From NCBI GenBank assembly GCA_002050095.1, contig MWSR01000078.1, positions 1-32,567 on the forward strand: 32,567 nt of DNA, read 5' to 3'. The stretch is from Microgenomates bacterium UTCPR1 (lineage in GTDB: Bacteria; Patescibacteriota; Microgenomatia; UBA1406; GWC2-37-13). Numbering within the stretch: the stretch's first letter is position 1; the number at the start of each line of letters is the position of its first letter. Of the stretch, positions 1,761 to 26,936 are shown in pieces. Both the position numbers and the translations under genes were made by a program. The notes beneath the pieces were generated by a model. It had not been told where the DNA came from. It saw only the letters and a program-made list of their open reading frames with translations, and ran no database searches.

Positions 1761-2777
1761 ATTCTTTATTTTTGTTTCCGTCGTTGTGGTAACCGTCTGG
1801 TGCTTCTTAATTAATTCAAGAATAATCTTTTGATTTGTTTCATCCAACTCCGAAAATATATCATCAAGCAAAAGAATAGGTTTGATTTTTTTTAATTCAT
1901 AAAATTTTAGTTCATTGATTTTCAACCAAAATATTGCCAGCCTTTCCTCGCTTCTTGACCCAAACAGATCAACGTCTTTCTGTTCTTTATCGTTACCGTT
2001 GCCTACCAAGATCCTAAAATCATCTTTTTGAGGGCCAATCAATGTCCGTCTTAATATCCTTTCTTTCTCGATAACTTCTGCAAGTCTTTTGCCGTTAAAT
2101 TCGTTTTTCATATAGATAATCGAAAATTCCTTTGAATCAAGTTTCCGATTTGAGTTTAAAAAATCGACATACAGTTGTCTTTTATTAGTTATGTATCTTG
2201 CCTCTTTTTCAAGATAGTCGTTCCAAAAGACCAACTCGTCCTTCAAGCTAATCGACTCCACATGTTTCTCCAATACCTTATTTCGTTTTCTTAACGCGCT
2301 ATCATAATTGGTTAAGTGTTTTTTATATTCAAGATCATGTCGGGACAACTGATGATTAAAATAATCACGCCTTGCACTAGGCGGACCGGTTATCGTATAG
2401 ATCTGCTCGGGTGTAAACAAGACTACACCGGGAAAATCGGCTCTATATTTAGTATATTTTTGAGGTGTTTTGTCAATAAAAAATACTTTCTGCGTTAGGT
2501 CTTTCCTCCTGATAATTTTGATCTGGAAAGAATATTTTTCTTTTCCTTTAGAGAAATTTGCCACAGCTGAAAGCTCGTCTTTACCAAACGAGATCAACTC
2601 TTCCTCTTTCTCCTCTCGAAAACCAACCCCTGCAATTATAAGGTAAATTGATTCCAGGAGAGTTGTTTTTCCTCGTGAATTGTTACCGATTATCAAAGTT
2701 AAGTTAGGAGAAAAATCAAAAGACCGTCGTTCAAAATTCCTAAAATTACTAAGAATAATCTCTTTAAGAACCATCAT
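1713..2777 (-). CDS. recF: DNA replication and repair protein RecF
   Basis: RecF is an SMC/ABC-like ATPase that binds ssDNA-dsDNA junctions at gaps and, with RecO and RecR, loads RecA. Visible are the N-terminal LKEIILSNFRNF strand, Walker A GNNSRGKTT (residues 31-39), the RecF signature region GPPSARRDYFNHQLSR and Walker B LLLDDIFSELDE near the end. The 354-residue length is normal. The start overlaps the stop of the upstream kinase-methyltransferase gene by 4 bp, so translation is probably coupled. A second ATG one codon in (MVLKEI) is equally possible. The gene converges with the LexA-like gene, so an SOS repressor and a RecA loader sit side by side. Confidence 0.92.
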   Translation of the reverse strand: MMVLKEIILSNFRNFERRSFDFSPNLTLIIGNNSRGKTTLLESIYLIIAGVGFREEKEEELISFGKDELSAVANFSKGKEKYSFQIKIIRRKDLTQKVFFIDKTPQKYTKYRADFPGVVLFTPEQIYTITGPPSARRDYFNHQLSRHDLEYKKHLTNYDSALRKRNKVLEKHVESISLKDELVFWNDYLEKEARYITNKRQLYVDFLNSNRKLDSKEFSIIYMKNEFNGKRLAEVIEKERILRRTLIGPQKDDFRILVGNGNDKEQKDVDLFGSRSEERLAIFWLKINELKFYELKKIKPILLLDDIFSELDETNQKIILELIKKHQTVTTTTETKIKNLVKLSDDGFYHTINL

Positions 2778-4099
2778 TTCTTTTTAAATAAGTATCGGGT
2801 TTCGAAAAAAGATGGGAATAGGATTCTCTTTCTCACCCTGACCAATTCTTTAAACGAAGAAAATATACTGTTCCAATATTTAAGTGAAAAGTGAGATATA
2901 TTTGAATAGTCTTGTTTGTGTGTTAAGCTCAACCAAAAATTCTCTCGTGTATAGATTTTATGACTGATATATTTACTACTCACCCTTATAGACTCTTTTA
3001 TTACTTTCCTAATTTTAGATTGTTCTATATGATTAAATAAATCATAGCTCAATACGAGGTCAAAACTGTTATCGGCAAAAGGGATATTGGTAACATCGCC
3101 CAACTTTATGTATTGTTTTATTCCTTTATCGGCAAGCATTTTCGCCGACTCGGAAAAATCCAATCCGTAAGCTTCAACCTTAAAAAATCTCAACCATCCG
3201 ATTAATCCTCCCGTCCCACAGCCAAGATCAAGGCATTTCTTAGGAGCCAGTTCGGCGATAATTAATACCGCTCGAATAAAATTAACCAAATTATGAAACG
3301 CTCTTCCAAAAAATGAACCGGTCAAAGTTACCCGATGACCTCCTTTCTTACCCATATAATAATCTCTATCATAGAAGGTCGAATCGATCCGATACGGCGT
3401 CACTACCGTTCCGTCAAACGACTCTTTATCGATAATATTCTCAATATTTTTAAGATCTTTCCCATAAGTAATAATTACGGTCAATCCCAATTTTTTTGCC
3501 AATGGAGTTGCTACCGGATCAAAAGGAGAGTTGAAGCCGGGCGACCATTTATTCCCAATAATCTTTTCCATTTCTTCCCAGGTGATTTTCTTTATCAGTT
3601 GAGCGTCTTTAAACTTTTTCGGATCTTTATCATAGACGCCATTTATATTTGATAAATTTATCACCAACTGCGCCTTATAATCTCTTGCCAGGATGACGGC
3701 ATCGTAATCCGTCGACCAACCGGGTTTCCATCCGGCTCCAATCGCGACGGGCTCTTTCCAATTAAAAAGTTTTTTATCGTAGTTTGCGATTATACGGGGA
3801 TGAGCGATATCCTGAAAAATTGTTCTAAGTAAGTGGGCGTTAAATCGAGTTGCATGAATTCCTAACCAATCAAGATCTTCATCGTTAATGTTTCCAATTA
3901 CATTTCTGGCTGCTTCCTGATAGTGTCTGCAGATATTCCCTCCTCCGGCAATAAGCATAAATCTTTTTCCTTGAGCAACTTTTTTACGAATAAGCAAGTT
4001 CAGTTGAGAAAGAAATTCCGTATCAACTCCCGTATCGGGAGCAATTAAACTGCCTCCTACGGAGATGATTATTGGCAGCTCTTTGGTTTTGAAAAGCAT
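2774..4099 (-). CDS. pyrH: UMP kinase fused to a class I SAM-dependent methyltransferase
   Basis: Residues ~8-235 form an amino-acid-kinase domain of the UMP kinase type: ISVGGSL at the phosphate loop, LIAGGGNICR, DWLGIHATRFNAHLL, GAGWKPGWSTDYDAV and INLSNINGVYDKDP. It should convert UMP to UDP. Residues ~240-441 form a separate Rossmann methyltransferase domain: KCLDLGCGTGGLIGWL (motif I, ~288-303), an acidic residue in YGLDFSE, GDVTNIPFADNSFDLVLSYD, and no visible clue to substrate. PyrH is normally about 240 residues, so this protein carries a full extra domain. There is no stop or frame change at the join (~235-250). It heads an operon with recF. A TATAAT lies 13 nt before the ATG. Confidence 0.88.
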   Translation of the reverse strand: MLFKTKELPIIISVGGSLIAPDTGVDTEFLSQLNLLIRKKVAQGKRFMLIAGGGNICRHYQEAARNVIGNINDEDLDWLGIHATRFNAHLLRTIFQDIAHPRIIANYDKKLFNWKEPVAIGAGWKPGWSTDYDAVILARDYKAQLVINLSNINGVYDKDPKKFKDAQLIKKITWEEMEKIIGNKWSPGFNSPFDPVATPLAKKLGLTVIITYGKDLKNIENIIDKESFDGTVVTPYRIDSTFYDRDYYMGKKGGHRVTLTGSFFGRAFHNLVNFIRAVLIIAELAPKKCLDLGCGTGGLIGWLRFFKVEAYGLDFSESAKMLADKGIKQYIKLGDVTNIPFADNSFDLVLSYDLFNHIEQSKIRKVIKESIRVSSKYISHKIYTRENFWLSLTHKQDYSNISHFSLKYWNSIFSSFKELVRVRKRILFPSFFETRYLFKKK

Positions 4100-4118: not shown

Positions 4119-4460
4119 TCAGATTATTCCTGTCTGTAGTCCAAAAATCATCGCAATAATCCTGGTAATAAAAAAAGATAGCGCCAATAACACGAAGCCG
4201 ATTATCCCTGTTGTAATTTTTGCTTGCGCTCCTTTAATTTTTTCAGGATTTCCTTGCGACATCATAAACTCATAACCTCCCCAGATTAATACAAAAAGAA
4301 GTATTACCCCGGCTAAGGGAAAGATAAACTGGGTTATACTACTGACAATATCCCCTATTTTAGGATCGGAAATAATCTCGCCATTACTCCCTCTTATCTT
4401 CAACGGCCCTTCTATGGTCTGTCCGCCTAAATTAACCGATTGAGTTAGAAGATTTTTCAT
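4119..4460 (-). CDS. Small pilin-like membrane protein (T4SS-pilin family type)
   Basis: This short protein ends in two hydrophobic helices around the loop WGGYEFMMSQGNPEKIKGAQAKIT. That layout (TM, G-rich turn, SQGNPEKIKxAQxKIT, TM) is typical of the small T4SS-pilin/VirB2-like family that CPR genomes carry in many copies. I chose the ATG at 4460 (MKNLLTQSV), giving 113 residues; a TTG at 4496 would add 12. Either way the start lies inside the 3' end of clpC, which suggests coupling to clpC translation. Related copies are at 10770-11507, 26638-26934 and 26937-27311. Assembly into a filament or a pore is inferred from the family only. Confidence 0.75.
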   Translation of the reverse strand: MKNLLTQSVNLGGQTIEGPLKIRGSNGEIISDPKIGDIVSSITQFIFPLAGVILLFVLIWGGYEFMMSQGNPEKIKGAQAKITTGIIGFVLLALSFFITRIIAMIFGLQTGII

Positions 4461-7410
4461 TTTGTAATTGATTTGAACTTGATAATCCGGAGCCAATTTC
4501 CATACTTTTACCTTTGTCGAAGGTTGGAGTTTCTTTATTATCTACCCCATGAGAAGTCGCCTTCTTCCCACACTTTGGACAGATAACGGTTGAGTTTTTT
4601 ACAACCTCTTGTTCAAAAGCAAAATGACATCCGTTACACTCATACTTCTTTTTATCCAACTGTTTCAAAACCGTCTTCTCAATATTAAAAACAAGGTTCC
4701 CTCTCTCCAAGTGAGCCCGTATTACATCACCCATCTTGACCTTCCCCTCGATGATAAGATTTGATATCGGGTTTTCCACCAACTTCTGGATTGCCCTTTT
4801 TAGAGGTCTTGCCCCAAAAAGAGGATCAAATCCTTCTTGAACGACTCTCTCAACAACTTCATCGGTATAGAAAAAATCCATTTCCTGATCCTCCAGCAAC
4901 TTCGCTACCCCTTTCAGTTGAAGTTTAACGATCTGTGACATATGTTCATACTTCAAAGGCTCAAATACGGTAATCTCGTCAAAGCGATTAACCAACTCCG
5001 GCTTAAAAAACTTAAGTAGCTCGGCCAAAACTTTTTCTCGAATTATTCGAAAGCCGTTTGATCCTTGTCTATTCTTTGATTTAACTGTTTTTCCCTTCGG
5101 CAATCCATCTTTATCTTTATCCGATAGAGGTGCTTTTTCCTGTTTAACTATCTCCTCCTGAATTAGTTTTGTCCCGATATTTGAAGTACAGATAATCACC
5201 GTATTTTTAAAAGAGATCACGTGACCTTTATTATCGGTAAGCCTGCCGTCATCAAGTATCTGAAGAAGGATGTTAAAAATATCGGGGTGCGCTTTTTCAA
5301 TCTCGTCAAATAAAACAACCGAGTACGGTTTTCTTCTGACCGCCTCCGTTAGTTTCCCGCCCTCTTCGTATCCGACATAGCCCGGAGGGGCTCCAAGCAG
5401 CTTGGCAACCTCATGTTTCTCCATATATTCGGTCATATCAAACCTGATCATCAAGTCCTCACTACCAAACAAAACATCGGCCAGAGTCTTTGCCAGCTCC
5501 GTCTTACCGACACCCGTTGGACCAAGAAAAACAAAGCTACCTATCGGCCGTGTTGCCGATTTTAATCCCGCCCTGCCACGACGCACCGCCTGGGAGACAG
5601 ATGACACCGCCTCCTCCTGGTTAATCAATCTTTGGTGAATAATATCTTCAAGTTTTGATAACTTTTCAACTTCTGACGAGCTGATTTTTGCAACCGGGAT
5701 ACCGGTCCATCGGGAGACGATATCGCGAATAATATCAGGGGTCACACTGGTCGTTGTCTGACCTTTTTTTAAGTTATACTCTTCTTGTTTTATCTTCAAT
5801 TCATCCTGAATTTCGGCAATCTTCGATTTCAAGATTCTTGACTTTACCCTATCGACCTTTTTATCCGCTTCCTGCATCTCTTGAGAGAGCTCCTTCACTC
5901 TCGTATCCAGCGATTTTATCTCTTCCGGAAGCGAGATTAAAGGAAGGCGAACCGCCGATGCCGCTTCATCAATAAGATCTACCGCCTTGTCGGGCAGAAA
6001 TCTCCCACCAACATATCTTTTCGACAACCGAACGGCCGCCTCAACCACATCCGACGGGATTTTGACTCGATGAAAAGCTTCGTACTTATCCTTTATCGCT
6101 CCCAACATCTTTATTGCCGCCTCCTCCGTCGGCTCGGGCACAACAACCGGCTGAAAACGTCTCTCAAGCGCAGGATCTTTTTCGATATACTTTCGATATT
6201 CCGTCAGGGTCGTAGCCCCAATCAACTGGATCTCGCCCCTGGCCAAGGCAGGCTTTAAAAAGTTTGAGGCATCAAGCGTTCCGTCGCCCGAAGAACCCGC
6301 TCCGACGATATTATGGATTTCATCGATAAACAATATAATCGCTCCGCTTGAAAGCTTTACTTGTTCAATTAGATCTTTCATTCTCTCTTCAAACTCTCCT
6401 CTTCGCGATGCTCCCGCCAGAATACTCATTAGATCAAGTTGAAGAATTCTTTTATTCAACAGAGGTTCCGGCACTTCCTTTGAGACGATCTTTTGGGCAA
6501 GACCCTCGACAATGGCCGTCTTACCGACGCCCGCTTCACCGACCAACGAAGGATTATTTTTCGTTCTTCTTGACAGAATATGAATCACCCGCTCAACGAC
6601 CGTTGATCGTTCAACAACCGGATCAAGAAGGCCTTGGGAAGCTTTTGCGGTCAGATCGATTGTGTATTGCTCCAATGCCTGCCTCTTCTTTTCGGCATGC
6701 TTTTCCTCTTCGGTTAAACCTTCTTTCTTACCCGTAACTTTTTTGTTAAGAACATCTTTTTGGACGCCAAGCTTTGCAAGAATTCTGGCACCGGCACCCT
6801 CTCCTTCCTCAAACAAAGCCAAAAGAAGGTGCTCCGGAGCAATAAATTCAAAACCCAACCGACGGGCGACGGTTAATGCATTATCGACAATCCTTTTTAC
6901 TCTTGGAGAAATCTGAATCGGGCGATCAACCGTCCCTCTTTTAAAGATCTTCGTTAACTCGTCCTGGACCAGCTGCGGTTGAACTTTGATTTCGACCAAT
7001 AGACTATATATCTCGCTATCGGTGGTTAATCCGTAAAGCAGATGCTCGCTGTCAACAAAGTCGCCTTTAAGCTCCTTTGCTTTAACCTGCGCCGACATCA
7101 TCGCCCTATTTGAGCGTTGTGTCAGATGAGTCATCAAATCAAGGTTGTTATTCTGCGGCTTTGATCTTGTTTGGGTGTTATCAACAACGGATTGAGGCGG
7201 ATTATTTCCTTTTGGATTATTGCCGGGTGTTTGAGCTGGATCTTTGGTCACCTGTCCAGTGTTATTTTGTATATTACTTTGACCTTGTTGGCTCACGATA
7301 TCATTGCCCGCCAAACTCTGTGCAGGTGTTCCTGGCACAGCCGTTGCTACCTGATCATTTACACTTGTATTGGTAGCAGGTTTTTTTATAAAATCAAAAT
7401 AATCAGCCAT
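4432..7410 (-). CDS. clpC: ClpC/ClpA-type AAA+ unfoldase with C-terminal zinc ribbon
   Basis: This is an ATP-driven unfoldase that would thread proteins into ClpP. Order: Gln/Asn/Pro-rich disordered leader (residues 1-90), double Clp N-domain (~95-235), AAA1 with Walker A GEAGVGKT (291-298) and Walker B ILFIDE, a short coiled-coil middle region (~495-550) of ClpC rather than ClpB size, AAA2 with Walker A GPTGVGKT (630-637) and VVLFDE, and the D2-small domain. After the normal end it adds a four-cysteine ribbon (C925, C928, C944, C947) and a Ser/Asn-rich tail. At 752-784 a Lys/Asp-rich insertion leads into NGF, at the position of the ClpP-docking (I/L/V)GF loop, so ClpP binding is plausible. 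The ATG follows TATAAT by 6 nt. The ribbon may bind adaptors or substrates (inference). Confidence 0.93.
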
Positions 7411-7416
7411 ATTTTT

Positions 7417-7446
7417 ATTATATGAAGAAAACGATTACTATTGCAA
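7417..7446 (-). promoter_or_regulatory. clpC promoter lying inside the start of the divergent gene
   Basis: Minus-strand -35 TTGCAA (7441-7446), an 18-bp spacer and -10 TATAAT (7417-7422), then 6 nt to the clpC ATG at 7410. The -10 overlaps the first base of the divergent gene's ATG at 7422. In the other direction TATTTT (7410-7415) lies 6 nt before 7422. The whole intergenic gap is 11 bp. Confidence 0.7.
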
Positions 7447-8531
7447 GTGTGATTCTGCTTTCTCTCCTCTTGCTAATCTTTCTATTAACAAGACCAAAAA
7501 ATCAGAGCCAAACCAACAAAATGCAGGTAGTCCTACCGACAACAGCTGCGTCTGATTTTAGAGTAAAAAAACAATCTGATCAAAACGATAGCAGTCAAGT
7601 TGACAATCTATCCGATGACCCTTCAATCAATCAAACACTTAGGGTAATTAACCCTTTTATTCCGTATGAAGACGACGATTTTAAGATAGAGTATTCTTCC
7701 GATGTCGATAAGATAGTCATCACCGAAAAAACACCTAAGGCGGCGGAAAAAGTCAGCCAATGGTTACAACAAAAAGAGATTTCCGATTCGATTAACCCTG
7801 GAGCCTTCGTCCTAAAAGATACCAACACCAATACCTATGTCACCCCCACCCCTCCGATAAAAGTTCTCACCGATCTTTTTGATATTTTCTTATTCACGGG
7901 ACAGGGTACCTCTCAATCAAATACACGTATAAATACAAATCCGACAATTATTCCGACAATTAGGTCGTCAAATAATCTAAAAAAAACCACAAAGATTACT
8001 AAAAATGGCGGCAATAATTCGTACGTTTACTATGCCCAATGCGACAGCCCTTATGCTTCGATTCCTATGGCGGAAGGCTGTACGGTTTGCAATACCGGTT
8101 GCGGTCCGACAACGGTTGCGATGATCGCTTCATCTTACATAGACAAAAGTTACGACCCGAAAAAAATTATCGATCTATATAAGGAAAAAGGGTATCTTCT
8201 TAGCTGCTCGGGGACAAGGTATGCCGACGCAAAAGCTATTCTTGAATCGTTGGGTCTCAAAACAACGGACTACATAACCTACGATCTGGAGAAGGCAGAC
8301 AAAGTCGCCGAGGATTTAAAAAAATACTACAAAGCCGGTTGGACTTTTATGGCGTTGGCAAACTTCAAAGACGAAGGTCCCGGTCATTTTTTCTGGATCA
8401 CGGAGATAGATGATAAAAACAATCTTTGGGCTTACGACGTCTACTATGGGAGATTCGAAGCTCCCCCCCTAAATGAGAACGGTCGTTATCCGTTTCCAAA
8501 GTACCGTGTTATCTTTGGAGTTAAAAAATAA
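7422..8531 (+). CDS. Membrane-anchored C39-like cysteine peptidase
   Basis: An N-terminal membrane helix (residues ~5-22) is followed by a low-complexity polar stretch, a small module at ~72-131 shared with the next gene, a second low-complexity linker, and a papain-like peptidase_C39_2-type domain at ~200-369. Candidate catalytic residues are C227 in GCGPTTVAM, H322 in GPGHFFWITE and D339 in AYDVYYG. C207, C220, C223 and C227 cluster before the active-site helix, so a disulfide or metal site is possible. The domain should face outside the cell. C39-family enzymes process exported peptides or cleave peptide bonds in the wall; the substrate here is unknown. It starts an operon with 8538-8981 and 9002-10750. 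Confidence 0.8.
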   Translation: MKKTITIASVILLSLLLLIFLLTRPKNQSQTNKMQVVLPTTAASDFRVKKQSDQNDSSQVDNLSDDPSINQTLRVINPFIPYEDDDFKIEYSSDVDKIVITEKTPKAAEKVSQWLQQKEISDSINPGAFVLKDTNTNTYVTPTPPIKVLTDLFDIFLFTGQGTSQSNTRINTNPTIIPTIRSSNNLKKTTKITKNGGNNSYVYYAQCDSPYASIPMAEGCTVCNTGCGPTTVAMIASSYIDKSYDPKKIIDLYKEKGYLLSCSGTRYADAKAILESLGLKTTDYITYDLEKADKVAEDLKKYYKAGWTFMALANFKDEGPGHFFWITEIDDKNNLWAYDVYYGRFEAPPLNENGRYPFPKYRVIFGVKK

Positions 8532-8537
8532 AAAAAT

Positions 8538-8981
8538 ATGCAAGCCCCAAATACCAAAATATATTTAGTTGTTTCCGTGATTCTTGTTATCTTGTTTTTC
8601 CTGGTAACTTTTTATCCTTTAAGCAAGAAGCCACAAATACCCAACCAAAAGACAGATGATAACCTGGTTCTCCCAACATCCATTGAAAGTAAGGAAGCCG
8701 ATAACATTCCAAACCGAATTCCAACCGTTAAGGTCGCAGACTCAACGGGAGTTTATGAAGAGGCTCTGCCTCAATACACTCTTAATCTTTCCAATCAAAA
8801 ACAAGATCTAAGGCGAAGGGTTCCTTTTGACACCGGCCTATTCCAGATTGATTTCGATTATGAGGACGACAAATTTGTCGTCACCCTATCGGAGCCAAAA
8901 CAGGAAAACCGGTCTCAATTTGATCAATGGCTAAAATCAAACTATCCAAATCTATCAGTTAACCAGTTTAATTTCCGATAA
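8538..8981 (+). CDS. Small anchored protein sharing the stalk module of the upstream peptidase
   Basis: A 147-residue protein with one N-terminal membrane helix (~8-25), a polar linker and a C-terminal ~55-residue module. The module aligns by eye to residues 72-131 of the preceding peptidase: hydrophobic-PF, F-x-I-x-(Y/F), DxDKxVxT, PK, QWL, then a final N-x3-F. The peptidase domain itself is absent. It starts 6 nt after the upstream stop and is probably co-transcribed. Function is unknown. The shared module may bind a common partner in the envelope. Confidence 0.65.
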   Translation: MQAPNTKIYLVVSVILVILFFLVTFYPLSKKPQIPNQKTDDNLVLPTSIESKEADNIPNRIPTVKVADSTGVYEEALPQYTLNLSNQKQDLRRRVPFDTGLFQIDFDYEDDKFVVTLSEPKQENRSQFDQWLKSNYPNLSVNQFNFR

Positions 8982-8989
8982 ATTTCTAC

Positions 8990-8995
8990 TACAAT
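8990..8995 (+). promoter_or_regulatory. -10 box before the VirB6-like gene
   Basis: TACAAT followed by 6 nt and the ATG at 9002, in the 20-bp gap after the 147-residue gene. I see no convincing -35, so this is either a weak internal leaderless promoter or chance. Confidence 0.4.
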
Positions 8996-9001
8996 GAAGA
9001 T

Positions 9002-10750
9002 ATGTTAATGTTCTTCAAACCGACATTCGACTCGATTAAGAAAATTTTTATTGTCACTATTGTTTTCTTGGCGGTTATTAATCTTTTTTTCTATTCGATT
9101 GACAAAAATAAAAGACAGCTCAAGTTCGACCCACCGGCCAAGTTGATTGAAAAAAATCGTCAAGACATCTATAAAGTCATCAACGATAAGGAACTACTAT
9201 CGACTAAGGAGGGTAAATATACCGTTTTGGCTTATCGAACAATGTTTTGTACCATGCTCGGTGAAGCTTGTACCGACAATCCGAAAGACGGAGATAAGAA
9301 CTACGATACCAGTGTTTTTGGTCGATTGACCAAGTTGTTTGTACTGCCATTTTCCAGGCCTCCCGCTTCGGGAATCTACTGGGCGTACTCCGGTCTTGAA
9401 ACAGCCGGTTTTGTCCCAAAAACATTGGCTGCCGAAGGAATCGGCTTTTCCGTTATAAAACCGTTTGCAAATATCTGGAAAATTTTCCGCGACTTTTCGT
9501 ATATGCTTCTTGTCCTTATTCTAATAGCTATCGGTTTTATGGTGATGTTCAGAACCAAAATCGACGCCCAAACCGTTATTACGGTTGAGAGCGCCCTGCC
9601 AAGAATTGTTATGTCGTTAATCCTGATTACTTTTTCATTTGCTATTGCCGGATTTATGATCGATCTGATGTATATTTCGATAATACTAATCATCGCTGTT
9701 TTAGGAAACAACGGTAATAACTTTGATATCGCCTCTACTCAAAATACCTATCTTGGGGCAGGGATGGGTCAACTATTTAAAGATGTTACCGCCGGAAGGC
9801 CTTGGTCAACATCAGGGATGAGCACCCTTCTTCACGGACCGGGAATGATCCAACGGCTTACCGACTCTCTGTTTGGTATTTTTCCTGGGTATGTAAATTT
9901 TATATTAAGATCTCTGGTTGGTGTTATTTTTACCATATGGTCTATCAATAGAGTGTACTCCTCAACAATAAAGGATGCCACCAAAGTGGCGGATGATATA
10001 GAAGCGGCATCATTTTCACTGGGAAAAGTGCCTGGATTTATCTTGGGGGGGGCTTCTAATGCAATATTCACAATCCTAATGTTATTAATAGGTTCAAGCG
10101 TGATTGTCAACGTGCTGTTTCTAATACTTTTTGTGGGGACTTTCCTTTTTCTTATTTTCAGGGTATTCGCTTTATTGTTTTTTTCTTATATTAAATTACT
10201 ATTACTCGTAATCTTAGGCCCCTTTCTTCTTATTTTTGAGTCGATTCCGGGAAAAAATGTTTTTTCATGGTGGTTAAAAAGTCTTATTGGCCTGTTGATT
10301 GCTTTTCCAATCGTGATCACCGTTGTATTAATTGGATACATAATAGTAAACTCATCCACGCCAACAACCTATTCCGACCTAACTCTTCCTTACCTAAACG
10401 GTATCGATACGGACTCATTCAAAATTCTTATTGGGATCGGGTTAATTCTTATAATCCCCGACCTGGTCAAGCTTACCAGGGAGACTCTGGGGATAAAGGA
10501 TCTACCGATCAACTTAGGCCTTGGTACCTTCTTTGGCGGTGCCGGAGCGGCGATGGGCGGTCTTACGGGATTGGCTGGACAGGTTGGTAGTTTCAGTATG
10601 GGTTTAAGTGCTATAACCGGAAAGTCGATCAACGAAATATTTAAAAAAGGTGGTTCATCCAAAAAAGGTGATCCGGGCGAACCGGGCGATTTGAAAGCAG
10701 CCGTAAGTCAGCTATCTCAAGCGGTAAAAAATCTAATGAATAAGGTGTAA
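9002..10750 (+). CDS. Polytopic membrane protein, VirB6/TrbL-like
   Basis: A 582-residue protein. One membrane helix at ~15-32 is followed by an extracellular-type loop of ~120 residues with two Cys (MFCTMLGEACTDN), then a series of hydrophobic segments between ~160 and ~465, and a Gly-rich segment (FFGGAGAAMGGLTGLAGQVG) before a Lys-rich cytoplasmic tail. This layout resembles VirB6/TrbL inner-membrane channel proteins of type IV secretion and the long versions seen in CPR genomes. The assignment rests on topology and on neighbouring pilin-like genes, not on a motif. It is the last gene of a three-gene plus-strand operon and converges with the Cys-rich pilin-like gene across 19 bp. Confidence 0.6.
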   Translation: MLMFFKPTFDSIKKIFIVTIVFLAVINLFFYSIDKNKRQLKFDPPAKLIEKNRQDIYKVINDKELLSTKEGKYTVLAYRTMFCTMLGEACTDNPKDGDKNYDTSVFGRLTKLFVLPFSRPPASGIYWAYSGLETAGFVPKTLAAEGIGFSVIKPFANIWKIFRDFSYMLLVLILIAIGFMVMFRTKIDAQTVITVESALPRIVMSLILITFSFAIAGFMIDLMYISIILIIAVLGNNGNNFDIASTQNTYLGAGMGQLFKDVTAGRPWSTSGMSTLLHGPGMIQRLTDSLFGIFPGYVNFILRSLVGVIFTIWSINRVYSSTIKDATKVADDIEAASFSLGKVPGFILGGASNAIFTILMLLIGSSVIVNVLFLILFVGTFLFLIFRVFALLFFSYIKLLLLVILGPFLLIFESIPGKNVFSWWLKSLIGLLIAFPIVITVVLIGYIIVNSSTPTTYSDLTLPYLNGIDTDSFKILIGIGLILIIPDLVKLTRETLGIKDLPINLGLGTFFGGAGAAMGGLTGLAGQVGSFSMGLSAITGKSINEIFKKGGSSKKGDPGEPGDLKAAVSQLSQAVKNLMNKV

Positions 10751-10769
10751 AGTAAAATCCGTTAATACT

Positions 10770-11507
10770 CTACTTAAATCCGGGAATTCTTAATATGTTA
10801 ACTCCAATTAACCTCAAGATAAAGATCGAAAATATTATAAGCATCAACCCCATTATGCAGCTTGTAATCATCTCTTGAGCCTTCTTCAGCTTCTCCGGAT
10901 TTCCTTGAGACGACTGCATCATAAACGCCGAATAGATCAGACAAAGCAAAGACACTCCCCCAGCCAGTCCAACACCCAAACTAAAAACGGTATCCCTAAT
11001 GAATCCGCCAACCGTCCCCTGTACACAACCCAACCCCGTCCAGACTCCGCCTAAATTGATACAACCAAGACAGCTACTAACCTCTTCGGGCTTTGTTTGA
11101 GCCTGGCAAAACTTTGTCAATCTTTCAAGAGGTTTTATAGCAGCCTCTCCGTCAAGCTCACAACGGCAATTTAAATCCGACGGATCTTCCGTTGATTGTT
11201 TCCCTGTTAGGCATACTTTGGCCATTTTTTGTTTATATTCCTCAAACGGACTTAAAAAATTTCCCCGAAAAAACTCAATGGTTGTCCCAAGAATAGCATT
11301 TTTTATGGTATTAAAAAGATCACCATATTCGGGTCCTTGCTTAATTGGTACTTCGTTCAGATAACAACATTTATTCGTCGCAATGTCTCCCGCGATCCCA
11401 CAGTTTATTCCCGGATAAAGATTTAGAGCTTCTTGCGCCTCTACCGGCCGTAAAGCGATAAATATTACGAAACAAAGAGTTACTATTAGCTTAATAAAAT
11501 TACGCAT
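10770..11507 (-). CDS. Secreted Cys-rich protein with pilin-like C-terminal membrane domain
   Basis: A signal peptide (residues 1-24, ending PVEAQ) precedes a Cys-rich extracellular region containing pairs such as NCG, KCCYL, NCRCEL and CLGCI. The C-terminal ~75 residues hold two membrane helices around FMMQSSQGNPEKLKKAQEMIT, the same signature as the 4119-4460 protein. The extracellular Cys residues suggest disulfide stabilisation, which needs an oxidising surface. It starts 18 nt after the stop of the 1194-residue gene, so the two are probably one operon. It may be a pilin-like subunit with an exposed adhesive head (inference). Confidence 0.7.
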   Translation of the reverse strand: MRNFIKLIVTLCFVIFIALRPVEAQEALNLYPGINCGIAGDIATNKCCYLNEVPIKQGPEYGDLFNTIKNAILGTTIEFFRGNFLSPFEEYKQKMAKVCLTGKQSTEDPSDLNCRCELDGEAAIKPLERLTKFCQAQTKPEEVSSCLGCINLGGVWTGLGCVQGTVGGFIRDTVFSLGVGLAGGVSLLCLIYSAFMMQSSQGNPEKLKKAQEMITSCIMGLMLIIFSIFILRLIGVNILRIPGFK

Positions 11508-11525
11508 AACTTTATATTACCAAAT

Positions 11526-14500
11526 TTATCTTTTCTTTCCTTGTGCATCCTCCAAAGCTTCCTTCAAATACTGCCACAAAATCAAAGCCATTACTATCGG
11601 TAGGAACTTATTAACCATATCAAACGCAATCGCTTTAAAGTCACCACCAAATTCTTTTCTAAATTTTGCCGCTGTCCACTTAAAGTCCGGTTGGATTTTG
11701 CGACCCAACTTAAACTCCAATCCCAGTATCTTAATTTTCCTATCAACAAATCTCGGCCCAATACTCATATCATAACCCTGGAGCGGTAAAATACCATAAG
11801 ATTCAACCGCTGTCATATATCGATCAATCACGCTTGAGTCCCATTCCCAAACCGCCGCCGATCGTCCGGCATATTCGGCCGCGATTGAGTTTATTCTTCC
11901 TAAGCCAAAAATACCTCCGAAAGCCTTAGATATGGAGTCTTTCTTAAAATAGTTAACAACTAAACCTGATACATTATATGCAAATTTATAAAATTCGTCT
12001 CCTACTCCATGGACCGAATCAAAAGCGTTTTTAGCTTTTTGTAAATATTCTATTATCGGACTAAAATCGTTTTTACCGTCTATTGAAATTTTATGTAATA
12101 ATTTAGGCAGGTCCAATAAGCCGTTGATAACCTCATCCTCCAGAAGTGCAATATCTCCAATTGATCTTGCCGCCATTCTTGGACCCGTTCCTCTGAAGGC
12201 AATTAAGCGTGAGTCAACATCCTCAACTCCAAACGCAAAAGGATAAAGCGACATCATATCCATAGCCTTATTATCCAAAAACGATTCGTTAAGATAATTT
12301 TTCTTTATAAGTTCATATAGTTTTATCGTTCTGTTAATGTCTCTGTCCGTCCTTTCTCCCCCAAATTTTTCTCGAAGTATCGTCTTTACGCTTTCTTCTG
12401 TCAGATTTTTCATCAGCTTATCATAGTCGCCCAGACTAAAGCCTTCCCTGTTTCTTGTCATCTGCGCTGTCTCAAATATTCTATCACTACTTCTCATCCT
12501 TAAATACGACTCAATGAAAGCCAGATCCTTCATGCTTCGGTCAAACTCATCATTTGTAATATTCTTATACTCTTCGGTATCTATCATATCATTAAAAATT
12601 TTGTTCCAACGACTGTATTGATCCTCTTTATTGTTATAATGAAACCTGTTTTTATCTATTTTTAAAAACTTTGTCGGAAACCTTAAAGCGATAATTCTGG
12701 CCATCGTTCTATCCGTAAACATACCGTCAATCTTTTTCTGCAGTGACTCTTCCGTGATTTCCTCATTGTTTTTTTTCATCTCTTCCTTGGCTAACGAGCT
12801 AAGATTTGACATATAACTGCTAAAGTTGGCGTTTTCATTAATTGCCTTAAAATAACGATTGAATATAAACTCATACAGTTCCATCTTTTCGGCTGCGGAA
12901 GGAAGTTTAAAATTATTATAAAAATCGGAGTTAAGGCTACTTAAAAAATACTTAACCGCCTCATATCCGATAACATCCACGGCACGAAACGACTTAATTA
13001 AGTCAATTTCGCTATTTAATTCTCCCTTATATACATAATGAGGCTCATACATCATGTTATTCCTCCAACCTCCCCTAAAAAATACACTTCCTGTTTTTGC
13101 TACTCCCAATAGCGTATCGATAAACAAATTCTTATTCGATCCTTCTATTCCGTTCTCTAAATGTTTAAACTGATCCTTGTATGCCGCTATATTCCTAAAA
13201 ACACTGTTATGGTCCCAGCCTCCGAAAAACTTTCCTGCATCTCCCGTTACCGGGATAAAAAATGCCTGATTAAAATTCCCTTGGCCTTGCCACCGTAAAA
13301 TTCGATGAAGCGGATTAAGAGCCATAATTGGAGAGGCGTCATTGGTGCCGTATGACGGGAAAAAACCCGTTCCCTTGGCATCAACCGGATCGGCAAACGC
13401 ATTAGTTTCGGACTCGGTCAAATAGACTCCACGGGCAAAAAACCCAACCGCACTTTTAATTGCGTTATTAATTCTCATATCCGAAAGCTCTTTCCCATGA
13501 CTAATCCGTAGATAATTGGCCACCTCCTTTTCAACGCCGTTATTAAACTCCGAAAGCTTGTTTGAAAACATATCCGGCCGTAATCGCCAATCTATGCGAG
13601 CATATTCCTCCTGAAGAAGTTTTGTATATAGTACAAACGCTTCCTGTACCAAAGGAGCATCAGGTAGAAGCATAAACGAATCAAGGCTAATTCCTTTTAT
13701 CTGCTCGGCATATTTGGCCAGTCCTTTATAAAAGCTTCCTTCATGAGCGGGAAAGGAATATGTATAGCTTGCATTGTGGCTGTAACCTGTCCTTGCTCGC
13801 CAATGATCAAATTCCGAGATTAAGTTAATTGAAAAATCCGACAAGCTAATCGGCTTTAAGATGGGGGTCGGTCTTGTTCTCGGCACGGGCCTTCTTATCC
13901 CGTCAATTCCCATCTCATAGATAGTATTTTCCTCTTCTCCGTGATAATATAAAGTTAAATCTCGCACTCGATCATCTCTTTGTTGTTCAAGTTCTTTAAC
14001 CTCCGTTTTTATTCTAAAAAAAGACCTTTCTATTTCATTTCGAAGCACCTCAATACCTCTCATTAAGTCTTCTCTTTCGGCTTCTTCAAAGGGCTTATCG
14101 GCGCCTATGGTAAATATCTTCATATAGATCTGGATATAGATATCGTTAAGCCGATTAGTAATGTTTTCGGCCACCTTGGTCATAATTCTTTTCTCGACCT
14201 CCGCTTTCAAATTGGCTTCGCTAATCGTACTCCCAAATAATTGTTGGTGGACATCTCTAATTTCTTTGGCAAGTTCTCCTCCCTCATTTTCCTTACTTCG
14301 CAATTGATTGATTTTTTCAACGAACGTATCAATATAAAAATCGGTGTCGTGAAGGAAGCGGTCAAAGAATTCTCTATCACTACTGGATAAATTGGCAAAT
14401 AGATGCTCTATTCGTTCAAAGTTAGGATTATTTCCTCTATTTTGATTCTCACTTCGATCTTCTCTCTTTATGCCAAACATCTCCTCAACATCCTTCCTTT

Positions 14501-15110
14501 CCTTGCCATACTGCCCATGATTATCGACAACTGCGTCAATAAGATAACTCGCTGTAATCGGGTCTTCTTCTCGATAACGTTCAACTTCCTTTACAAACTC
14601 GCTTTTTTGATCATCGGTTGAAAGGACGATATCCTTCTCACCTAACAAATAGGGTGCGAATTTGGTCATTAAATCGACGGCCTTTTCTTGGGAAGCAAGC
14701 CTAAAGGACAGGTTATTTAGGATTGTTTGGGCTTGACGAGTTTTGGCAACTTGAACTCCTTTTTGAGCGGCCAGATAAATTTTTAGTAGATGCTCTTTTG
14801 TACTTTCTTTTATTTTCTTTTCTTTCTCCTTTATTTCATTTTTTTTAATTTCACTATCATCCGTTTGGTTTGCCGATTCCTCCTGAAGTTGCCTATACTC
14901 ATTAATGCGCGAGAGCAGTTGATCTCTCATATTTTTCTCTATCTCGCTTATTTTTTGTTCCTGTTCTTCGGCAGATAGCCCTGAAGCCCTTGCTACCATT
15001 ATCTCTCTGCTTAACTCTTCATTTAGTCTTCCTAATATCTCTTGTATTCTACTCTCAAAAGAATAGTCCCTCCCATCTCCGGTATTTTTTTCTCCATTAC
15101 TTGAGTCCAT
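11526..15110 (-). CDS. Giant tail-anchored protein of unknown family (1194 residues)
   Basis: I do not recognise a family. The first ~170 residues are highly charged and probably coiled coil (Glu/Lys/Gln-rich), as is the region ~330-390. The middle (~420-1100) looks globular, with aromatic-rich stretches such as SYTYSFPAHEGSFYKGL and FFRGGWRNNMMYEPHYVY. A single hydrophobic helix (FLPIVMALILWQYL) lies at the very C-terminus, leaving a short Lys/Arg tail, so the protein is probably cytoplasmic and tail-anchored. I find no signal peptide and no cysteine in the whole sequence. Its own leaderless promoter lies upstream and the Cys-rich pilin-like gene downstream. A cytoplasmic scaffold for the envelope apparatus is a guess from context. 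Confidence 0.7.
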   Translation of the reverse strand: MDSSNGEKNTGDGRDYSFESRIQEILGRLNEELSREIMVARASGLSAEEQEQKISEIEKNMRDQLLSRINEYRQLQEESANQTDDSEIKKNEIKEKEKKIKESTKEHLLKIYLAAQKGVQVAKTRQAQTILNNLSFRLASQEKAVDLMTKFAPYLLGEKDIVLSTDDQKSEFVKEVERYREEDPITASYLIDAVVDNHGQYGKERKDVEEMFGIKREDRSENQNRGNNPNFERIEHLFANLSSSDREFFDRFLHDTDFYIDTFVEKINQLRSKENEGGELAKEIRDVHQQLFGSTISEANLKAEVEKRIMTKVAENITNRLNDIYIQIYMKIFTIGADKPFEEAEREDLMRGIEVLRNEIERSFFRIKTEVKELEQQRDDRVRDLTLYYHGEEENTIYEMGIDGIRRPVPRTRPTPILKPISLSDFSINLISEFDHWRARTGYSHNASYTYSFPAHEGSFYKGLAKYAEQIKGISLDSFMLLPDAPLVQEAFVLYTKLLQEEYARIDWRLRPDMFSNKLSEFNNGVEKEVANYLRISHGKELSDMRINNAIKSAVGFFARGVYLTESETNAFADPVDAKGTGFFPSYGTNDASPIMALNPLHRILRWQGQGNFNQAFFIPVTGDAGKFFGGWDHNSVFRNIAAYKDQFKHLENGIEGSNKNLFIDTLLGVAKTGSVFFRGGWRNNMMYEPHYVYKGELNSEIDLIKSFRAVDVIGYEAVKYFLSSLNSDFYNNFKLPSAAEKMELYEFIFNRYFKAINENANFSSYMSNLSSLAKEEMKKNNEEITEESLQKKIDGMFTDRTMARIIALRFPTKFLKIDKNRFHYNNKEDQYSRWNKIFNDMIDTEEYKNITNDEFDRSMKDLAFIESYLRMRSSDRIFETAQMTRNREGFSLGDYDKLMKNLTEESVKTILREKFGGERTDRDINRTIKLYELIKKNYLNESFLDNKAMDMMSLYPFAFGVEDVDSRLIAFRGTGPRMAARSIGDIALLEDEVINGLLDLPKLLHKISIDGKNDFSPIIEYLQKAKNAFDSVHGVGDEFYKFAYNVSGLVVNYFKKDSISKAFGGIFGLGRINSIAAEYAGRSAAVWEWDSSVIDRYMTAVESYGILPLQGYDMSIGPRFVDRKIKILGLEFKLGRKIQPDFKWTAAKFRKEFGGDFKAIAFDMVNKFLPIVMALILWQYLKEALEDAQGKKR

Positions 15111-15165: not shown

Positions 15166-15639
15166 TTATGAAGTCACCGGTGTATTAGATTTCATATCGA
15201 CAACCAGTCTTCGATCGCGTCCTTCCCCGATCGAATAGGTTGTCAGATCGGGATAGTTCTTTGTCACATACTCATGAACAAGCTTCCTTTCGTAGGAAGA
15301 CAGATTTCTTATAAAGCTTGGCCCATGGCTTGACTGTGTTTTCTCGGCATACTCCGAAGCCAAAATCTCCAACTTTTCTTTCTGTTTTTCACGAAAATCA
15401 TTAACATTGACAAGGATCTCGACACCTTCACCAAACTGCTTGTACAAGATGACTTCGAGGATCTTCTGGATTGCTCTGATTGTCTCTCCGTGGCGCCCAA
15501 TGACCGTTGAAGCTTCATCGTCGGTCTTGATAATAATCTGAAAGATGCCCCCGTCTTCTTCAACATCAACCGTAAAACTACTAACCATCTTCGAAAGAAT
15601 CGCTTCCGTTTCTTTTTTGATTGTACTTTGTTTATCCAT
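15166..15639 (-). CDS. jag: KH-R3H RNA-binding protein Jag (KhpB/EloR)
   Basis: This is an RNA-binding protein normally encoded next to yidC and linked to cell elongation and envelope control in Gram-positives. It has a KH domain with the GxxG loop GRHGETIRAIQKIL (~residues 50-63) and a C-terminal R3H domain with LSSYERKLVHEYV. The N-terminal Jag_N domain is absent, so the 157 residues are KH plus R3H only. It has the clearest Shine-Dalgarno in the window: AAGGAG, 5 nt before the ATG (minus strand, 15645-15650). A 6-bp inverted repeat (ACCCTT/AAGGGT, 15660-15680) separates it from the yidC stop. Confidence 0.92.
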   Translation of the reverse strand: MDKQSTIKKETEAILSKMVSSFTVDVEEDGGIFQIIIKTDDEASTVIGRHGETIRAIQKILEVILYKQFGEGVEILVNVNDFREKQKEKLEILASEYAEKTQSSHGPSFIRNLSSYERKLVHEYVTKNYPDLTTYSIGEGRDRRLVVDMKSNTPVTS

Positions 15640-15679: not shown

Positions 15680-16483
15680 TCAATTTTTAATTTTTAATTG
15701 CTTACCCTGAATGATACTAAAAATTGAAAAAATGTTCCAGTACAAAGAAAGGCCGACCGGTAACGTATACGAAAACCAGCCGATCATTATCGGAAACATA
15801 AACTTCATCTGGGTATTCATTGCCTTTTGAAAATCATCTCCGCTTCCTTTTTCCTTATCATCACCCTTCTCTTTGGTCTTTTCGACCGTTTTAGCCGTCG
15901 TTGTCGGAGTCGTCATCGATACCGCCTGCCAATACTGAAGTGCTCCTGTTATTAAAGGGATTAACATATAGTACCAAAGCCCCGACTGTTTTGGAGTTGT
16001 TGCCAAATTAAATCCGATAAACCAGAGATCAACCGATCCTATTTTCAGAAACGGTGAATACAGCGCCTTATTAATGCTCTCAACTGCCTCTTTCCCCTGC
16101 CCGTTAGTCAAAAATATCGACAAACTGTTGTATAGAGCAATAAAAACAGGGATCTGGACGATCATCAACAGACATCCTGATGCCGGATTAATCCCCGCCT
16201 GTTGATAGAGCTTCATCTGTTCCTGTTGAAGAGTTTTCTGGTCGTCTTTATGCTTTTTACTCAATTTATCAAGGTGGGGTTTTAGCTCGGCCATTTTTTT
16301 CGAGGTCTCCAACTGCTTCCTGAAAAAAGGCTGAAACAGTCCTCGAATCAATGCCGTAAGAGCAACTATGGCAAATCCAAACGCTCCGGGAATTTTTATC
16401 AAAAGAAATCCTTTATATAAAAATACCAGAAGATTAAGAATCGGAAATACAAAAATGGAATTAAAAAAATTTGGTTGAAGCAT
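15680..16483 (-). CDS. yidC: Membrane protein insertase YidC/OxaA
   Basis: This protein inserts and folds inner-membrane proteins, alone or with SecYEG. At 267 residues it is the short Gram-positive-type form without the large periplasmic domain. Visible are the core YidC sequences AIVALTALIRGLFQPFFRKQLETSKKM, then a charged hairpin (LKPHLDKLSKKHKDDQKTLQQEQMKLYQQAGINPASGCL, the typical C1 loop), VQIPVFIALYNSL, and the last helices with FPIMIGWFSYTLPVGLSLYW. The cytoplasmic loop between the later helices carries a Thr/Lys-rich insert (TTPTTTAKTVEKTKEKGDDKEKG). It starts 2 nt after the rpmH stop. Several polytopic and pilin-like proteins here are likely clients. Confidence 0.95.
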   Translation of the reverse strand: MLQPNFFNSIFVFPILNLLVFLYKGFLLIKIPGAFGFAIVALTALIRGLFQPFFRKQLETSKKMAELKPHLDKLSKKHKDDQKTLQQEQMKLYQQAGINPASGCLLMIVQIPVFIALYNSLSIFLTNGQGKEAVESINKALYSPFLKIGSVDLWFIGFNLATTPKQSGLWYYMLIPLITGALQYWQAVSMTTPTTTAKTVEKTKEKGDDKEKGSGDDFQKAMNTQMKFMFPIMIGWFSYTLPVGLSLYWNIFSIFSIIQGKQLKIKN

Positions 16484-23173: not shown

Positions 23174-23842
23174 ATGAAAATATCGGTCGTTATCCCTGCC
23201 TACAACGAAGAGCACTACATCAAGGCTTGTCTGGATAGCCTGCAAAAACAGGTTAAAAAACCCTATGAGATTATTGTTGTCGATAACAATAGCACCGATA
23301 AAACGGCCGAAATCGTAAAAAATTATAAAAATGTCAAACTTCTTAAACAAAAAATTAAAGGAACCATAGCGACAAGAAATCTTGGTTTTGACAGTGCTAA
23401 AGGAGATATCATTGCCAGATGTGATGCCGATACGGTCGTCTCGCCCGATTGGGTAAAAAATATTGCTAATGACTTTAAAAAGAGTAACTCGATAGTTGGA
23501 GTATCTAACCTTATCGTAATGTCCGGAATCCTTGAGAGGTTTAAATTCTTATTTTATATCTATATGTTTGTTCCGAGACGATTCCTTGGTTACCACTCAC
23601 TGGTTGGCCCAAGTATGGCTATCAGAAAAGATGCCTGGAATAAGATAAGAAAAGAACTTTGTACCGATAATAAAGCTGTTCATGAAGATGTCGACGTTGC
23701 TTTTCATATCAAAAAACTCGGAGATATATATTTTGATAAAGATAATGTTGCCATAACCTCATCAAGAAGAGTCAAACATAACCCTTGGTCTTTCTTTATC
23801 GAATACCCGATAAGATTTTTTAGGATGTTAGGGAGTCATTAA
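23174..23842 (+). CDS. Family 2 glycosyltransferase
   Basis: A 222-residue GT2 enzyme: KISVVIPAYNEEHYI and EIIVVDNNSTDKT at the N-terminus, IIARCDADTVVSPDW with the DxD metal site, GPSMAIRKDAW and VHEDVDVAFHIKKLG as the ED region. A hydrophobic patch at ~residues 128-140 (FKFLFYIYMFVP) may touch the membrane. It is shorter than many GT2 enzymes but has all core motifs. The ATG follows TAAAAT (23162-23167) by 6 nt. An earlier ATG at 23170 is out of frame. Its 3' end overlaps the convergent DNA ligase gene by 15 bp. Confidence 0.87.
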   Translation: MKISVVIPAYNEEHYIKACLDSLQKQVKKPYEIIVVDNNSTDKTAEIVKNYKNVKLLKQKIKGTIATRNLGFDSAKGDIIARCDADTVVSPDWVKNIANDFKKSNSIVGVSNLIVMSGILERFKFLFYIYMFVPRRFLGYHSLVGPSMAIRKDAWNKIRKELCTDNKAVHEDVDVAFHIKKLGDIYFDKDNVAITSSRRVKHNPWSFFIEYPIRFFRMLGSH

Positions 23843-25546
23843 TCCAACTTCTTTAAGGGTGGTTGCGTCTTCAGGCTTCTTGTCAAACCTAAATCTCTCA
23901 AGTCGTGGAAATCGCAACGCGAAGCCGGCCGTGTGTACGGGTGATTTTGTCACTTCGTCGGCGCGAATCTCAACGACAATCGAAGGTGCAATCCAAGCAT
24001 CACACTCCATCCCCTTGTTTACCAAATAATTCTCCGGCTTTTTTTGAATTTTGAAATTTGAAATTTGAGCTTTTAACTGTCGCCATTCGTCATCGGTCAG
24101 ACCGGTACCGATCTTCGCAACGGTCACAAAACGATCTCTATCCTCGTCATAGACTCCGACCAAAAAAGCCCCGATACCAAAATCGGCTCTCTTCCCCTTC
24201 CCGAGATCGTACCCCATGACCACGCAGTCAATCGTATCGTTTACCTTCGACGAATAACTCTTTTTATACTTAATCCAGTTCCATTCCCTTGCCCCAGGCT
24301 TATAAATCCCTTCGATCTTTTTTGCCATGATTCCTTCCAGTCCGTCGTTTACCGCTTTGTCAAACAACTCATCCAAAACCCTGTCTTCGACTACTTTTTT
24401 CTGATCGGTTACAACAATTGTTCTGTTTGACCCCTGTTTCGACAAAACAGATTTTACAAGCTCACCTCTTCTCTCAATAAACGGTCTGTCGATATAACTC
24501 TCACCGTCTTTATACAATAACTCAAAACAAAATAATCGCAACGGTATCTCTTTTACCTTCTCTTCAATGTCATATTTTCTTTTTCTTTGAACGGTCTCTT
24601 GAAACGGTAGGTATTGATCGGTTTTTGGATCAAAACCAATGGCTTCACCCTCAAGGATAACCTCGTTAGCCAATACTTGCTTTTTGATACCGGTAACAAT
24701 ATCCGGATACATAAAAGTTACATCCTCCAGACTTCTAGAAAAAAGTTTGACTTCGGAAGTATCTTTCTTAAAATGAATTTGCAAGCGGAATCCGTCAAAC
24801 TTCGACTCAACCAGACACGGCCCGATCTGCTTTATGATCTCACTTCCCGAAGTCAATCTCTCCGCTCTCATCATGATAATCGGGGTAAATATTTTTGGCT
24901 TTATTTTATTTAACTCTTTTACCCCTTTCTCTTTTATCAGCCTGCCGATATATCCAAGTTCGGGTCGGACATGGTAAGCCGCTTGAATCTGTGGTCGAAG
25001 TTTCTTGTCGCCATCGATCATCCACGAATAAGCGTCAAGGACGGTCATATCCGAAAAACCCATTCGAATATTTCCGGTTGGGATTCTCACCAAAAATCTC
25101 GATGATAGCGGATCAAGTTGCCTTATTAATTGTGAGAGTAAACTGATCTTTTTCTCTTGACTGCCGGCTCCCTGCGAAGTCGCTAAAGAAAAAAATACTT
25201 CATAAACTTCGGTGATCTCCATCTCTCTTTCTTCAAACGAAGTATACTGTTTTTTAAAATTCTCAACCGTTGCGCCAAGATCCCCTATCTTTTTGAACTC
25301 TCTTTCAAAATAGCCCTTATCGATATTAAGAGCCAAAATAGACGACTTAACAATTGTTCTCTCGGCCATCCCAAAATCAATCCCTTCGTAGGCCGGTCTG
25401 ACTCTGCCTTGAAGAAGGTAGATAACTTTCTCCAACTCTTCAAAAGACAGTTGTCTAAATAATTCCGAAAGAATTTTTGTTATCTCAAGACGCGAAGAGG
25501 TATCGCTTATCCTTTTAAAGTAAGTTGATAATTTGCTAAATTTCAT
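23828..25546 (-). CDS. ATP-dependent DNA ligase, archaeal/eukaryal type
   Basis: Seals nicks using ATP through an adenylated lysine. The N-terminal helical DNA-binding domain (residues ~1-220) is followed by motif I ESKFDGFR with the adenylated Lys at ~249, motif III LEGEAIGFD, motif IV GLEGIMAKK, motif V WNWIKYKKSY, and an OB domain ending with APSIVVEIRADEVTKSP. At 572 residues it matches archaeal LigI-type enzymes rather than bacterial NAD-dependent LigA (~670), so it was probably acquired or supplements LigA. A short repeat-like insert (ISNFKIQ) lies at the base of the OB domain. It follows the Fic gene by 23 nt on the same strand. Confidence 0.93.
   Translation of the reverse strand: MKFSKLSTYFKRISDTSSRLEITKILSELFRQLSFEELEKVIYLLQGRVRPAYEGIDFGMAERTIVKSSILALNIDKGYFEREFKKIGDLGATVENFKKQYTSFEEREMEITEVYEVFFSLATSQGAGSQEKKISLLSQLIRQLDPLSSRFLVRIPTGNIRMGFSDMTVLDAYSWMIDGDKKLRPQIQAAYHVRPELGYIGRLIKEKGVKELNKIKPKIFTPIIMMRAERLTSGSEIIKQIGPCLVESKFDGFRLQIHFKKDTSEVKLFSRSLEDVTFMYPDIVTGIKKQVLANEVILEGEAIGFDPKTDQYLPFQETVQRKRKYDIEEKVKEIPLRLFCFELLYKDGESYIDRPFIERRGELVKSVLSKQGSNRTIVVTDQKKVVEDRVLDELFDKAVNDGLEGIMAKKIEGIYKPGAREWNWIKYKKSYSSKVNDTIDCVVMGYDLGKGKRADFGIGAFLVGVYDEDRDRFVTVAKIGTGLTDDEWRQLKAQISNFKIQKKPENYLVNKGMECDAWIAPSIVVEIRADEVTKSPVHTAGFALRFPRLERFRFDKKPEDATTLKEVGLMTP
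24044..24068. repeat. Short AAATTTCAAATTT-type repeat inside the ligase gene
   Basis: Three imperfect heptad-like copies of TTTGAAA read in frame as QISNFKIQK. Similar tandem AAATTTCAAATTT sequences are scattered in Microgenomates genomes (from memory). It falls in a loop of the OB domain rather than in a ligase motif. Confidence 0.45.
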
Positions 25547-26934: not shown

Positions 26935-26936
26935 CT

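Follow-up and report, generated by a model that had tools for sequence, protein, structure and literature searches.

A probable relocated channel and pilus half of a type IV secretion system in a Microgenomatia genome, and a giant protein paired with its VirB6-like component

We analyzed a 32,567-nucleotide stretch of DNA (hereafter the window) from Microgenomates bacterium UTCPR1, in which seven adjacent genes at positions 4119-15110 encode two pilin-like proteins, a VirB6-like protein (VB6), a membrane-anchored cysteine peptidase and its stalk paralog, an unfoldase and a protein of 1194 residues (GIANT). Our analyses indicated that the window probably carries the relocated membrane-channel and pilus half of a single type IV secretion system (T4SS) of the Patescibacteria type, derived from MPF-FATA systems, to which lineage-specific parts have been added. 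The T4SS belongs to the small number of machines with a demonstrated essential role in the host-dependent life of Patescibacteria, and its parts list is incomplete. To that list our data add a VirB6 candidate for the 243 of 281 Microgenomatia genomes matched by the VB6 profile, and a giant, co-conserved partner of it without a known fold.

The source is a 0.89-Mb draft genome, 92% complete, of a bacterium that is probably host-dependent; the window is its contig 46. The genes of the locus, its conserved flank and a further pair of pilin-like genes in the window were as follows (TM, transmembrane).

4119-4496, minus strand: PIL, VirB2-like pilin with two TM helices; PF18895 T4SS_pilin, 39.5 bits (cut-off 26.6)
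4432-7410, minus strand: ClpB/ClpC-type unfoldase with two AAA domains; Pfam AAA_2, ClpB_D2-small and Clp_N
7422-8531, plus strand: C39-like cysteine peptidase, membrane-anchored, 369 aa; PF13529 Peptidase_C39_2, 30.1 bits (cut-off 24)
8538-8981, plus strand: STK, stalk paralog; a TM segment and a small extracytoplasmic domain that recurs in the N-terminal region of the C39 protein
9002-10750, plus strand: VB6, VirB6/TrbL-like polytopic channel protein, 582 aa, with about nine hydrophobic segments
10770-11507, minus strand: CYSPIL, pilin with a Cys-rich head; signal peptide; C-terminal T4SS_pilin domain with a weak PF18895 match (19.7 bits, below cut-off)
11526-15110, minus strand: GIANT, 1194 aa, mostly helical, with a C-terminal hydrophobic anchor at residues 1160-1178
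15166-15639, minus strand: Jag/KhpB; Pfam R3H and KH_KhpA-B; conserved flank
15680-16483, minus strand: YidC; Pfam 60KD_IMP; conserved flank
26638-26934, plus strand: pilin-like gene, two TM helices, no significant Pfam match
26931-27311, plus strand: pilin-like gene; PF18895, 36.2 bits

The initial annotation, made from the sequence alone, had described seven adjacent genes in two converging units. All seven open reading frames (ORFs) were confirmed at their coordinates, in the strand order - - + + + - -, and this order was kept in relatives. The ORF of PIL had been called from a TTG codon, which gave it a 65-nt overlap with clp; an in-frame ATG at about position 4460 is the more likely start.

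In dozens of Roizmanbacteria genomes, the family to which the source genome belongs, we found the same recurring order, with pilin-clp diverging from C39-stalk-VB6, which converges on CYSPIL-GIANT-jag-yidC-valS. Family loci were anchored on VB6, and the denominators given here are the loci with enough sequence. CYSPIL and a convergent giant-sized ORF were present in all 43 loci that extended far enough downstream, jag and yidC in 34 of 34 that were long enough, clp in 33 of 39, C39 and STK each in 31 of 39, and PIL upstream of clp in 21 of 27. Profile searches identified a GIANT homolog in all 34 of the family loci fetched first. Because order and gene content were kept across these loci, an assembly artifact and chance adjacency are excluded, and the loss of the neighborhood in relatives, on which the grouping in the initial annotation would have foundered, was not what we observed.

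The assignment of VB6 as a polytopic VirB6-like protein was supported by its homologs and by its predicted fold. PF04610 (TrbL/VirB6) was matched directly by three of 58 close homologs (best E 4e-4) and by two of 22 homologs from across the phylum, one of which exceeded the curated cut-off and adjoined VirB4-TrsD. A fold search of the PDB with the AlphaFold model of VB6 (pLDDT 82.7) returned, among its nine top solved structures, at least seven that were VirB6/TrwI of R388, as chains of the stalk complex, or DotA; a sequence search of the PDB with the VB6 profile found nothing. VB6 resembles VirB6/TrwI of the R388 T4SS (PDB 8rtd, 7o3v) and DotA of Dot/Icm (9ngy) in being a polytopic channel or stalk-base protein, and differs from them in being a 582-residue protein with an extracytoplasmic N-terminal domain of about 130 residues that has two conserved cysteines. 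In a sample across the phylum, the VB6 profile matched 130 of 333 genomes. The two profile matches found per genome were considered as evidence of two paralogs and rejected as such, as they were mostly two segments of one gene with a variable loop between them. A 2025 survey reported VirB6 homologs to be scarce in Microgenomatia and suggested extreme divergence (PMC12102498). The VB6 family fills this gap with a candidate for most of the class, which earlier surveys mostly missed and which appears to be new.

The pilin-like proteins of the locus, including the one with the Cys-rich head, were likewise found to be of the T4SS type, as PIL matched PF18895 above the cut-off and CYSPIL, whose own match fell below it, aligned with PIL (hhalign P 98.4). 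The CYSPIL head, of a disulfide type, has seven invariant cysteines before the pilin domain and the domain two more, nine in all in the alignment. A type IV pilus was considered and rejected, as the pilin-like proteins match T4SS_pilin PF18895 and not the type IV pilin families; no PilB or PilC was found among the scanned proteins of the locus. Across the source genome there were five PF18895 loci over the cut-off, two of them in the window, and two below it. The pair at 26638-26934 and 26931-27311 probably represents extra VirB2-like subunits.

The initial annotation had noted no VirB4/VirD4-like ATPases in the window, and a family search of the genome located both on contig C5. This contig has a VirD4-like (T4CP-like) gene and a row of PrgI, TrsD-like and VirB4 genes, all upstream of dnaA-dnaN. 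VirB4 (G000:C5:9516-11279) matched PF19044 with 96 bits and NF045971 with 388 bits (cut-off 325), and the adjoining PrgI matched PF12666 with 40.9 bits (cut-off 27). The 218-aa TrsD-like protein had a weak match to NF041427 (17.7 bits, cut-off 200) and a score of 44 bits against the N-terminal region of NF045975. VirB4 was present in 44 of 44 high-quality genomes of the family, usually as a single copy. Together with VB6 and the pilins, these genes give the source genome the components VirB4, TrsD, PrgI, a T4CP-like protein, PF18895 pilins and a VirB6-like protein, which it shares with the T4SS of Patescibacteria (the candidate phyla radiation, CPR) as set out in the survey (PMC12102498). A virB4 side near dnaA/dnaN is also in common with the systems described in PMC12102498 and PMC10633639; in the latter, the T4SS of Southlakia epibionticum (SEML1_0006-0019) was reported to be essential. 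The Roizmanbacteria family differs from those systems in that its channel and pilin half lies away from virB4.

The distance between the two halves differed between families. Elsewhere in Microgenomatia, 53 of 78 genomes of other families had VB6 and virB4 no more than 25 kb apart, with a median of 11 kb, whereas this held for 0 of 25 genomes of the own family; in the five own-family genomes that had both genes on one contig, they were 64-318 kb apart. The other families showed how the whole cluster is arranged when undivided. In locus L146 a pilin array and VB6 converge on a giant gene that is followed by PrgI-TrsD-VirB4, and in L155 VB6 converges on giant-CYSPIL-pilins-PrgI-TrsD-VirB4. In two loci from other classes (L206 and L208), VirB6-like homologs stood upstream of PrgI/TrsD/VirB4. 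Since jag-yidC is retained beside the window locus, and lies with dnaA near VB6 in L152 and L211, this flank suggests a tie to an ancestral T4SS neighborhood on the oriC side, from which a rearrangement would have moved one half away from the replication origin. Proximity to virB4 is a trait of the usual cluster and not of the machine, and exceptions are mentioned in the survey (PMC12102498). The split also explains why a search next to virB4 misses part of the machine. The proposal of a distinct surface or secretion machine in the initial annotation therefore held in part: the gene set is conserved, but its distinctness is not supported, given VirB4, TrsD, PrgI and VirD4-like genes elsewhere in the genome and the same VB6 and GIANT homologs sitting in a virB4-linked T4SS cluster in other families.

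GIANT has no signal peptide, and its sole strong hydrophobic segment, at residues 1160-1178, is found at the same end in 49 of 55 relatives, in keeping with the tail-anchored protein predicted from the sequence. There was no Pfam match. Its AlphaFold model was confident (pLDDT 83.4, pTM 0.78) and mostly helical, and a fold search of the PDB and a viral library returned no match with E <= 0.001. The superhelical or tape-measure-like folds that did appear were low-scoring (best E 0.07 in the PDB and 0.03 in the viral library, TM-score about 0.1) and were rejected as matches; a sequence search of the PDB with the GIANT profile found nothing. The relatives diverge fast, with a mean column identity of 19%, and conservation is highest in a stretch of about 200 residues or more that contains the membrane anchor. 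W682-R683, P812, G976 and R982 are invariant.

The pairing of GIANT with VB6 extended beyond the family. The GIANT profile of Roizmanbacteria aligned over 700 columns with giants from Gottesmanbacteria T4SS clusters (P 98.7, E 3e-16), and over the C-terminal 180 with those of Chisholmbacteria (P 96.7). In the other families, all 16 loci of sufficient length had a large gene convergent on VB6. The genome-wide search with the GIANT profile gave matches in nine genomes outside the order, and in at least eight of these the match adjoined VB6 (at about 3.5 kb or less in seven and at 8 kb in another); the count is a minimum, as no VB6 position was listed for the ninth genome.

These data bear on whether the grouping is meaningful at all, as the locus might be no more than a set of envelope and housekeeping genes without relation to one another, held side by side only by the compactness of CPR chromosomes and their slow rearrangement within a family. 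Indeed, Clp, jag, yidC and valS are ordinary housekeeping genes and equally conserved as neighbors, and any functional link between them and the apparatus is uncertain. Yet VB6 and GIANT stay paired across families where all else nearby differs, as the genomes outside the order illustrate, and we regard this explanation as very improbable.

The source genome encodes a second VirB6-like protein, and this raised the question of which of the two serves the dnaA-linked T4SS. In the assembly, contig C5 overlaps at its end with contig C42, on which there is another gene for a Cys-headed pilin, as well as a row of genes (L044, 453-2982 and 3066-5543) for a SpoIID/LytB protein, a cohesin-domain protein and the second VirB6-like protein, of 825 aa. 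The SpoIID protein may be a wall-remodeling, VirB1-like part of the T4SS. By hhalign, the two Cys-pilins were homologous (P 96.7) and the two VirB6-like proteins distant paralogs (P 96, E 5e-9, 83 columns); the C42-type VirB6 was found in 62 of 72 family genomes. It is conceivable that, after a virB6 duplication, the C42 protein came to serve the dnaA-linked T4SS and that VB6, the Cys-pilin, GIANT and C39 of the window form a second envelope machine independent of VirB4. The presence of both paralogs in most family genomes, with two Cys-headed pilins, fits this arrangement, as do the constant separation of the locus from virB4 in the Roizmanbacteria family and the family-specific C39 and stalk genes. 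It is distinctly unlikely in light of the other families, where the same VB6 and GIANT homologs sit with virB4-trsD-prgI, and of the joint absence of VB6 and VirB4; moreover, no powering ATPase other than the Clp unfoldase was seen in the locus. VB6 and VirB4 were both absent from 12 of 281 genomes of the class, compared to about three expected (Fisher P 2e-6; P 2e-5 with high-quality genomes only), a statistic that ignores phylogeny and genome incompleteness. The complete genome G107 has neither gene, while its congeners G087 and G122 have both.

The limits of that statistic are one of several points that weigh against reading the window as half of a single T4SS. The VB6 protein of the window itself has no Pfam match, and none of its fold matches was significant alone (best E 0.11). 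Because the 825-aa VirB6-like gene lies nearer the dnaA-side T4SS genes, another function is conceivable for the window VB6. The C39, stalk and Clp genes were all but confined to the own family, and no clp was seen near VB6 in other families. Outside the family, the GIANT profile, consistent with fast divergence, matched no more than 14 of 254 genomes, and for the giants of Chisholmbacteria and some others the connection is chiefly one of position and C-terminal similarity. Taking these points together with the evidence above, we still consider that the window probably carries the relocated channel and pilus half of one T4SS.

In such a system VB6 would form the inner-membrane channel or the platform at the pilus base in concert with VirB4, PrgI and TrsD, whose genes lie elsewhere, and the T4SS-type pilins would build the filament. 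The Cys-headed pilin could be a minor, disulfide-stabilized subunit, probably at the tip or at the point of host contact. GIANT would be a cytoplasm-facing, C-terminally anchored helical scaffold that docks on VB6 as an assembly or substrate platform; both its topology and a physical complex with VB6 are inferred. The direction of transport and the cargo can likewise only be inferred. No conjugation relaxase was seen in the window, where no search aimed at relaxases was made.

A different role for GIANT is that of a T4SS cargo, an effector encoded beside the channel gene whose conserved hydrophobic and basic C-terminal tail acts as an export signal. Its very fast evolution would suit an effector, as would the lack of a signal peptide and of any known enzymatic domain and the conservation of the tail. 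We nevertheless think this unlikely, since the gene occupies a fixed convergent site beside VB6 in every own-family and other-family locus counted above, unlike typical effector repertoires, and the conserved part, with its membrane anchor, is much more than a short signal.

Large proteins beside VirB6 were not confined to Microgenomatia. In loci of other Patescibacteria classes (L199-L205, L207, L212 and L213), a VirB6-like gene has a neighbor encoding 900-1500 aa. These neighbors showed no homology to the GIANT profile, and several seem to end in metallopeptidase-like domains, with a HELGH-type motif by eye and a weak M23 match in L204. We speculate that VB6 and GIANT form an undescribed core T4SS subcomplex across Microgenomatia, in which a helical, anchored platform of a new fold sits at the channel mouth for substrate recruitment or gating, and that the unrelated-looking large proteins of the other classes are its functional counterparts; we regard this as possible rather than probable. 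If correct, it would place a platform in a system in which no VirB8 is found in most classes and the role of the coupling protein is uncertain; VirB8 is missing almost everywhere according to the survey (PMC12102498). A giant of about 1200 residues and its pairing with VB6 in several families appear to be new. Our literature search for this locus or for a giant T4SS partner returned nothing beyond the T4SS survey.

The peptidase is predicted to have one N-terminal TM segment (residues 4-22) followed by an extracytoplasmic catalytic domain. Its catalytic residues C227, H322 and D339 were kept in 32 of 34, 34 of 35 and 32 of 34 homologs, respectively, and the STK profile could be aligned to the N-terminal region of that of C39 (hhalign P 97.5, E 6e-12), in agreement with the anchored Cys peptidase and stalk paralog proposed from sequence. 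The protein is like the Peptidase C39-like family PF13529 in its Cys-His-Asp residues and its domain above the Pfam cut-off. It differs from the bacteriocin-processing C39 exporters in being single-pass and without ABC transporter parts, and in having an adjoining paralog that lacks the catalytic domain. An ABC exporter of that kind was rejected as an identity for this 369-aa protein with one TM segment and no ABC domain. Outside the membrane, pilins or cell-wall or host peptides may be the targets of the peptidase and its stalk paralog. The Cys-headed pilin and the anchored C39 peptidase, whose catalytic residues are intact, appear to be new additions of the family; neither they nor GIANT are described in the available portions of PMC12102498 or PMC10633639.

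Several further observations concern neighboring or related genes. A VKOR homolog (G000:C62:8024-8413, L214; 93 bits) is encoded elsewhere in the genome and could be a source of disulfides for the Cys-rich pilin heads. The unfoldase at 4432-7410 has a weak PF09723 match, a zinc-ribbon-like segment at its C-terminus that is unusual for ClpB/ClpC, and clp lies only 11 bases from the start of the divergent C39 gene. The second pilin pair is adjoined by a gene for a Fic-family protein (25570-26613, minus strand), and an ATP-dependent DNA ligase of the archaeal/eukaryotic type with all three ligase domains is encoded at 23828-25546 (minus strand). At 28059-29804 (minus strand), a 581-aa protein with no usable Pfam match appears, by reading, to have a phosphatase-type N-terminus, one TM segment and a beta-propeller-like outer part. 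Lastly, the gene at 2774-4099 (minus strand) encodes an amino-acid-kinase (UMP-kinase-like) domain fused to a C-terminal SAM methyltransferase domain, and this fusion of about 443 aa is kept in many relatives, with a version of about 250 aa in some.

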